From Candidatus Laterigemmans baculatus (GTDB taxonomy: Bacteria; Planctomycetota; Planctomycetia; Pirellulales; Pirellulaceae), in assembly GCF_010367455.1 (NCBI RefSeq), contig NZ_WRPR01000062.1, forward strand, positions 1 to 64,000: a stretch of DNA of 64,000 nt. The letters are read 5' to 3'. Shown here one piece after another: positions 3,975 to 51,995 of the stretch. Under the pieces are notes generated by a model, which saw only the letters and a list, made by a program, of their open reading frames with translations, was not told the DNA's origin and ran no database searches. How positions within the stretch are numbered: the first letter of the stretch is position 1; the number at the start of each line of letters is the position of its first letter. Position numbers and translations under genes: made by a program.

Positions 3975-4346
3975 GGCAGTAATCCTCCTCCCTGGCACGA
4001 TAAGACCGGATCCCATTCAACCCGCAGCAAGCAACGGTCGTTGCCTCTGGCCGGCGGGTACTCCGGCCACTCGCTGCCCATTCGCCCCCGGCAACCAAAC
4101 CGGAACGCGGCGACCAGCGGTGGCTTGTTTAGCAAAGTCACGCAAACTCCGCACGATCACATTTCAGCGGTAATTTGCGCGGGTGAAGCAAGCGGTGAGG
4201 AGCTCCGCCCCCTTCCCGGATTGCCGATCTTGCCAAAGCACCGGAATTATACCCAACCCTCACAACCGGTCAAGATTGATATTTTCGCGCCAAGTTGAAC
4301 AACCGCAACAGGTTACGAAGAGAGTCCGGGCAGCAGTCGCGGAATT
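3975..4346. other. Intergenic region upstream of the response regulator
   Basis: About 370 bp between the divergent 5' end of the response regulator and repeat A2. I see no credible gene. It should contain the response regulator promoter, but I could not identify -35 and -10 boxes with confidence. Confidence 0.5.
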
Positions 4347-4413
4347 CGTTTAACGGCAAGCCGAAGGCGACTGCTTTTTAAAACACCGACGCCTGTGGCT
4401 TGCCGTTAAACGA
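4347..4413. repeat. Family A hairpin, copy A2 (core only)
   Basis: Arms cgtttaacggcaagcc and ggcttgccgttaaacg around a gcttttta-type centre. The long flanks and terminal repeats of copies A4 and A5 are not recognisable. It lies 48 bp downstream of the mnmG stop and could also act as a transcription terminator. Confidence 0.85.
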
Positions 4414-6397: not shown

Positions 6398-6428
6398 CCC
6401 ACAGACTCCGCGAAAACGTCCCCCTGAT

Positions 6429-6510
6429 CGTTTAACGGTAAGCCGCAGGCGACTGCTTTTTGTAACCCTGTCGCCTAGAAACACAGTCGCCTGCGGCTTG
6501 CCGTTAAACG
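6429..6510. repeat. Family A hairpin, copy A3 (core only, longer loop)
   Basis: Arms cgtttaacggtaagccgcag and the matching ctgcggcttgccgttaaacg, with a loop longer than in the other copies. It sits between the divergently transcribed mnmG and the secreted repeat protein, so it is not a simple 3'-end terminator. Confidence 0.85.
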
Positions 6511-6636
6511 ATTTCTCCCCACCCCCGACGATTTTTCCTCAAGTTCCGTTACTTGGCCGGCCGAATGGCTGAAAGGTGGTTCCGCGCTTGTCGCTCGCGA
6601 TCCGCACCCACCGACGCCTTTTGCGGAGCTCCGGCC

Positions 6637-14352: not shown

Positions 14353-14550
14353 CAGCCGCGTAGCGGCGACATACAATAGCCTGGGGCGTCAGCCCCAGGA
14401 AACGCAACGAATCACGCGCACCAGCCCCAGCGGGGCGACATAATTCCGACACTCATCGCTATGCCGCCCCGCTGGGGATTCCAACTACGCATTGACTCTG
14501 GCTCCAGGGGCTCACGCCCCTGGCTATTCTCTTTCGCCGCTACGCGGCTG
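14353..14550. repeat. Family E composite inverted repeat
   Basis: Outer arms of about 47 bp at 14353-14400 (cagccgcgtagcggcga ... atagcctggggcg) and 14503-14550 in inverse. An inner inverted pair is built from agccccagcggggcgaca at about 14423 and its inverse around 14460-14477. The layout, outer arms plus an inner pair, parallels family B. It fills the spacer between the ABC ATPase and permease genes. Confidence 0.8.
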
Positions 14551-42348: not shown

Positions 42349-42403
42349 CGGTCTTTCCACACCCCACAACCTCCCCCCTGGGAGGGCCGTGATTTCAATC
42401 GTT

Positions 42404-42562
42404 TGAGCCGTAGGCGCTAGCCTCGGGTGAGCCGTAGGCGCTAGCCTCGGGTGAGCCGCAGGCGCTAGCCTCGGGTGAGCCGTAGGCGCTAGCCTCGGGC
42501 CTCGCAGCCCCAGGATTTCCGCTGCAGCCCCCGCGGCTAGCGCCGTCGGCTCAGGGTTTTCT
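42404..42562. repeat. Family C1: four 24-bp tandem units plus an inverted half
   Basis: Four direct copies of a 24-bp unit (starting tgagccgtaggcgctagcct) at 42404, 42428, 42452 and 42476, then a cctcgcagcccc spacer and an inverted half ending gctagcgccgtcggctcag. The second half matches 52525-52615 closely. Because 24 is a multiple of three, the frame stays open and gives a false HPRLAPTA octapeptide repeat. Confidence 0.9.
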
Positions 42563-42570
42563 GACAAAGC

Positions 42571-42755
42571 CTAGCTGGTCAGCGTCACTTTCTCACGCTG
42601 AATTGCCATCAAGTCAGCAGTGCCCAGCAGTTGGCTACCAAGTCGTTTAACGGCAAGCCGAAGGCGACTGTGTTTTAAAAAGCAGTCGCCTGCGGCTTGC
42701 CGTTAAACGATTTTTCCGCAAGCCGTACCAATCCAAAGTGGCGCTGTCCAGCAAG
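42571..42755. repeat. Family A element, full copy A4 (MITE-like)
   Basis: The most complete copy. The left terminal repeat begins CTAGCTGGTCAGCGTCAC at 42571. The right terminal repeat is its near-inverse at about 42735-42752 (aaagtggcgctgtccagc). Between them is the hairpin at 42644-42709, with arms cgtttaacggcaagccgaag and a tgttttaaaaa loop, and conserved spacers on both sides (tcagcagtgccc on the left, gatttttccgc on the right). Total about 180 bp, with no coding capacity. Confidence 0.8.
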
Positions 42756-51813: not shown

Positions 51814-51995
51814 CTAGTTGGATAGCGCCACGCTCTCATACGGAATCGTCATAACCTCAGCAGTGCCGAGCAGTTGATCCCAAAGTCGTTTAACGGCAAG
51901 CCGAAGGCGACTGCTTTTTAAACACAGTCGCCTTCGGCTTGCCGTTAAACGATTTTTCCGCGACCCGGTTTGCTGCAAACGAATCCAAAGTGGCG
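51814..51995. repeat. Family A element, copy A5 (right end lost)
   Basis: The left end CTAGTTGGATAGCGCCAC at 51814 matches the A4 end. It is followed by the conserved tcagcagtgccgagcagttg spacer and the hairpin at 51887-51951. On the right, gatttttccgc and aatccaaagtggcg are kept, but the terminal repeat stops at about 51995, where a family D copy begins (agcgaaaggcgactgcgctac). Confidence 0.8.

Follow-up and report, generated by a model that had tools for sequence, protein, structure and literature searches.

The window analysed here, the initial 64 kb of contig C122 in a genome of 5.76 Mb in 153 contigs, contains a complete copy (A4; 42575-42751, + strand, 177 bp) of a miniature inverted-repeat element (MITE) whose usual size is about 187 bp; the right spacer of A4 is 10 bp shorter than in most copies, owing to a deletion. 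A4 has a 17-bp left terminal inverted repeat (42575-42591, + strand; CTGGTCAGCGTCACTTT, with 2 mismatches to the consensus CTGGACAGCGCCACTTT) and a perfect 17-bp CTGGACAGCGCCACTTT as its right repeat (42735-42751, - strand), and between them lies a REPIN-like hairpin (42643-42710) of two 28-base arms with a short loop. The ends and the hairpin were recovered where a preliminary description of this DNA had placed them, but the CTAG with which it began the inverted repeats lies outside the repeat CTGGACAGCGCCACTTT and belongs to a 4-bp target duplication (YTAR). The left target copy of A4 is CTAG (42571-42574, + strand) and the right copy (42752-42755, + strand) has changed to CAAG, so that the two are no longer identical. 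The left CTAG is common to A4 and to the tip of an IS5-type MITE of a second family, E2 (42557-42574, + strand). Tandem GAGCCGYAGGCGCTAGCCTCGGGT units at positions 42400-42500, beside A4, are another palindromic repeat.

Folded as a DNA strand, A4 has a z score of -11.2, with none of 200 shuffled sequences equally stable, and its hairpin folded as RNA has a z score of -10.7 against shuffles. Such a very stable stem, followed by TTTTT, could be taken as a sign that selection maintains the element chiefly for a role as a transcription terminator or some other RNA structure. A terminator scan found none here (with a loop limit of 8, the loop of this hairpin being 10), and the target duplications and near-identical copies described below are explicable without such selection, which leaves this reading very unlikely. 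The only Rfam matches in the window were two Acido-Lenti-1 RNAs, at 14354-14399 (- strand) and 14504-14549 (+ strand), which face each other with about 100 bp between them.

Four other places in the window resemble A4. A5 (51818-51995, + strand; target CTAG at 51814-51817, hairpin at 51886-51952) is an older copy with 79% identity to A4, and its right repeat stops after AAAGTGGCG, in agreement with the right-end loss reported for it previously. A1 (1-109, + strand; target copy CTAG at 110-113) is the right half of a copy, 88% identical to A4 along its length. It does consist of a hairpin and a right end, as had been noted, but the lack of a left half is an assembly break rather than biology, because contig C122 starts at window base 1, within the hairpin. 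A2 (4346-4413) and A3 (6428-6513, with extra sequence in the loop region) are REPIN-like hairpins without MITE ends: they align to A4 over the hairpin and a few more bases only, and no inverted repeat was found within 200 bp of either (the best candidates having 5 and 7 mismatches in 15). Their description as hairpins alone was therefore borne out, but their membership of the A family was not upheld; A2 and A3 are probably free REPINs and not members of the MITE family, since the hairpin repeat family occurs independently, outside the MITE. Genome-wide searches for the transposase families DDE_3, DDE_Tnp_1, DDE_5 and Y1_Tnp gave no match on contig C122, consistent for these four families with the earlier observation that the window holds no transposase.

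The genome was found to contain many further copies. The 20-base end TAGCTGGACAGCGCCACTTT matched at 114 places with up to 3 mismatches (reversed control, 0), and was perfect in 61 of 100 matches listed from this total. The 108 ends that were scored, from loci covering these 100 listed matches and from earlier hits, comprise 50 left ends, 52 right ends and 6 unclassified ends, the last including A4's own right end, with its 10-bp deletion, and an interrupted end on contig C4. Median identity to the consensus is 98% for left ends and 96% for right ends, and at least 95% identity to their own consensus was reached by 43 of 50 left ends and 37 of 52 right ends. Terminal inverted repeats are present in many copies, with no transposase inside. 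No more than 200 bp separates 78 of the 108 ends from a contig terminus. From these figures we infer a family that is largely young and at which the assembly breaks; A4 and A5 belong to its older copies. In one of the searches for copies, 40 of 220 candidates were scored. Two copies (on C139 and C61) have both ends and no intact hairpin, and among 42 aligned copies the loop lies one way in 31, the opposite way in 8, and is cut or otherwise arranged in 3. The interrupted end (C4:8140), the interior of which differs, was considered as the end of an autonomous element. That reading was rejected in favour of a MITE end disrupted by a different element, since the same 94 bp recurs at C72:1-94 with other surroundings; a 38-aa reading of C4:8140 had no Pfam match. 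The segments G000:C4:8136-8253 and C72:1-94 are an end of that other element, which in C4 lies within an A copy and in C72 has different neighbours.

The four bases flanking the ends read YTAR, mostly CTAG. Where both ends could be read in this genome, the target bases are identical in 4 of 9 copies (C103, C120 with TTAG, C123 and C139) and not identical in the other 5 (C61, C88, C89, C140 and A4). From other genomes, with loci grouped by genome by hand and the genome under study (G000) excluded, 70 end pairs were collected, and 19 that did not have YTAR at both ends were set aside; one pair in the set (L177) includes a chance right end inside the insertion sequence of Blastopirellula marina. 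The flanking bases were identical in 46 of the 51 pairs tested (20 CTAG, 12 TTAG, 11 CTAA and 3 TTAA), compared to a mean of 16.1 identical pairs when right sides were shuffled, and 46 was reached in none of 20,000 shuffles. Because YTAR pairs match at this rate, the duplication, as judged from the sequences, is one of four bases and not of TA. Target duplications, which the preliminary description had suggested looking for, are thus present as 4-bp YTAR.

A duplication of TA alone was the first considered and was dropped, as the four bases co-vary between the two ends. A related proposal, that the family is a MITE of an IS5- or IS630-type element duplicating TA only, draws on TA being the most constant part of the target and on the presence in this genome of the IS5-type MITE E2; it is extremely unlikely, since four bases rather than two are duplicated and the elements found with these ends encode transposases of the IS701 type (see below). 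Among the DDE_Tnp_1 and DDE_3 loci of this genome, which were the loci inspected for this purpose, no IS5 or IS630 element with CTGGACAGCGCCAC ends was seen, and these loci were rejected as partners of the MITE, all having at least 5 mismatches in 17 to its ends.

Of 396 genomes from the order, 38, this one among them, contain YTAR followed by the end (with at most 1 mismatch), with one match in total for the reversed control; figures given from that search for places in the 38 genomes refer to the matches listed. Pairs of ends 1.6-1.8 kb apart enclose a transposase gene in six relatives: CA13 (four copies), Aporhodopirellula aestuarii, G310, G171, G388 and B. marina DSM 3645. Identical YTAR sequences flank 8 of these 9 full-length copies, the exception being that of G388. 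The two halves of the transposase protein score 52.8 and 112.2 bits against Pfam DDE_5 (cut-off 27), and each matches NCBIfam NF033540 (transpos_IS701) at about 1e-41 with 143 bits, below the whole-protein cut-off of 150; with DDE_5 exceeded, the partner transposase belongs to the IS701/DDE_5 group. With the CA13 protein as query, 7 of 26 genomes were matched, one of them (G118) by a fragment only. Some MITE and insertion sequence ends share more sequence than the repeat itself: a subterminal motif of the B. marina element was found again in 4 of 145 other ends (from G160, G044, G171 and G388; 2-4 mismatches), compared to about 0.1 predicted by shuffling. The gene is split across two frames in every IS701-type copy that was read. 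Among the IS701-type elements (L196, L197, L217, L220 and L221) the split falls at the same codon, with a -1 shift at the A run CGNCGAAAAAAAC, in 5 of 6 genomes, and G310 has the split without the A run. The pattern suggests that expression of the transposase may involve programmed frameshifting.

In the assembly under study no DDE_5 match and no IS701 gene was found. The shortest contig seen has 3103 bases and short contigs may be missing, so absence of the gene from the genome is not proven, and the IS701 source in this strain was presumably either lost or left unassembled. A transposase gene with the same terminal repeats, another of the suggested lines of search, was therefore located in relatives, as an IS701-type gene. 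Together with the further copies and the target duplications, it points to a mobile non-autonomous element, as had been proposed; neither of the findings named beforehand as fatal to that proposal (no copies with the same ends, or conservation of the hairpin alone) was made.

The hairpin has a distribution of its own. When up to 3 mismatches are allowed, the genome contains 268 matches to the 28-base arm of the hairpin (control, 0). Of the 100 arms listed from these, 57 lie no more than 170 bp from a MITE end and 43 have none at that distance; all 100 are perfect to the pattern, and the share near MITE ends may differ in the remaining arms. Two inverted REP arms that form a hairpin and are dispersed on their own are what defines a REPIN, and the central hairpin shows both features. 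A Y1-type gene (C30:41497-42243; L259:1171-1917) has three tandem arms upstream and one inverted arm downstream; it matches the REP-associated tyrosine transposase model NF047646 at 8e-13 with 48.5 bits, below the cut-off of 80, and Y1_Tnp with 21 bits, below the cut-off of 23. When 60 genomes were searched with the whole element, 8 matched, including this one; in 5 the match was to the hairpin only, in G047 to the ends only, and in G016 to both. G047 has the same MITE ends around a different hairpin, and further hairpins are present in other relatives, as identified by a crude finder that returned short stems for some groups. Away from MITE ends, the respective hairpin is also located at 12 places in G047, 7 in G016, 2 in JC639 and 1 in Aporhodopirellula; in none of the six remaining groups of relatives, each with few loci, was it seen away from them. 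Taken at the level of sequence, the hairpin is a repeat family independent of the MITE, and exchange of hairpins between MITEs is suggested.

These observations bear on two other readings. One is that the family is no more than REP hairpins that a tyrosine transposase has scattered independently, with the ends and spacers as chance flanks. In its favour, the hairpin does occur alone and its arms flank a gene resembling a tyrosine transposase; but the roughly 100 ends that match and have conserved spacers beside them (none in the control), the matching target duplications, and relatives with the same ends around other hairpins make this scarcely tenable as a general account. It is already refuted for A4, A5 and A1, and may hold for A2 and A3. 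Alternatively, the hairpin could be nothing more than the central part of the MITE, with the free hairpins, A2 and A3 among them, being decayed MITEs rather than independent REPINs. Decayed copies of the MITE do exist, and the failure to see the hairpin away from MITE ends in 6 of 10 groups of relatives, on few loci, is in keeping with this; against it stand the hairpin matches without MITE ends in relatives, the tandem arms beside the gene resembling a tyrosine transposase, and the 43 of 100 listed arms (of 268) that have no MITE end nearby. An origin of the free hairpins by decay is on balance unlikely.

The position of A4 beside the E2 tip is not isolated. Ends that adjoin TTTTCTGACAGAGC, with a match at no fewer than 10 of 14 positions, account for 31 of the 101 testable ends in this genome (one of 102 was dropped because its flank was too short), and of 204 YTAR flanks in the window only one reaches this score, which by its position is A4 itself. 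In other genomes the score is reached by 13 of 153 ends, compared to about 0.5% of 6464 YTAR flanks from the same loci. Two readings of the flank TTTTCTGACAGAGCC, as a target of palindromic form and as a simple target motif, were rejected, as the flank is where a distinct IS5-type MITE has its tip. The sequence TTTTCTGACAGAGC is the E2 tip, which has 155 matches with up to 2 mismatches (control, 1), the E2 family has the terminal inverted repeat GGCTCTGTCAGAAAA at TA, and a full-length IS5-family copy of E2, its gene split in two frames, is located at G000:C100:175305-176266.

A4 is thus very probably a MITE with IS701-type ends, inserted at YTAR and centred on a separately repeated REPIN-like hairpin. 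An IS701-family DDE transposase from full-length elements would bind the shared 17-bp ends, insert the MITE at a 4-bp YTAR, mostly CTAG, and duplicate the target. The interior consists of short spacers around the hairpin, for whose movement a REP-associated tyrosine transposase of its own is probably responsible. We infer transposition of the MITE, its movement by the IS701 enzyme, movement of the hairpin by the tyrosine transposase, and entry of the hairpin into the MITE as a unit from sequence. Counting against this explanation are the IS701 gene missing from the strain's own assembly, the limited range of the CA13 protein among the genomes queried, the IS701 halves that score under the NF033540 cut-off and the genes split between frames, as well as the few complete copies in this genome with identical target bases and a tyrosine transposase that scores under both cut-offs. 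A bolder reading is offered tentatively and may well prove wrong: that the element is a modular chimera, in which order-wide IS701-type ends act as a vehicle that repeatedly takes up, at its centre, whichever REPIN is abundant in the host, so that DDE and REP-transposase activities feed each other, and that the vehicle prefers the tips of E2-type IS5 MITEs, building nested islands of repeats.

IS701 transposases prefer YTAR targets. No paper naming both IS701 and YTAR was found in the literature search; target duplications of 4 or 5 bp are reported for the family (PMC8024623). Compared with IS701-family insertion sequences (NF033540; DDE_5), the MITE has the same 17-bp ends and YTAR duplication as the full-length elements of relatives, but it has no transposase gene and an interior largely unrelated to theirs. 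Bacterial MITEs, as outlined in PMC3733652 and PMC3116915, are defined by size, inverted repeats, lack of coding capacity and dependence on another element, all of which apply to the A family, but the latter adds a REPIN-like hairpin that is repeated separately and varies from one relative to another. REPINs, defined in PMC3116915 as two inverted REP arms forming a hairpin, have their likeness here in such arms, and the REPIN/RAYT system in arms on both sides of the gene resembling a tyrosine transposase; the differences are that many copies here lie inside a DDE-type MITE and that the gene scores below the RAYT model cut-off. A MITE of Porphyromonas gingivalis (PMC4596501) also has another class of repeat inside it, a tandem minisatellite there as opposed to a REPIN-like palindrome here. 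Among the titles and abstract openings searched, no description of the A-family element was found. MITEs and REPINs are each of known kinds; what is new is the combination and the apparent swapping of centres.

A repeat found at dozens of the contig breaks of this genome now has a likely partner enzyme, precisely defined ends and a rule for its target, and the results link MITEs and REPINs, two classes of small mobile DNA that are usually handled separately. The full-length element is present in cultured strains such as B. marina, which makes the proposal testable. Should hairpins indeed be exchanged, REP families would have in MITEs a second means of spreading, with a bearing on how such families originate.
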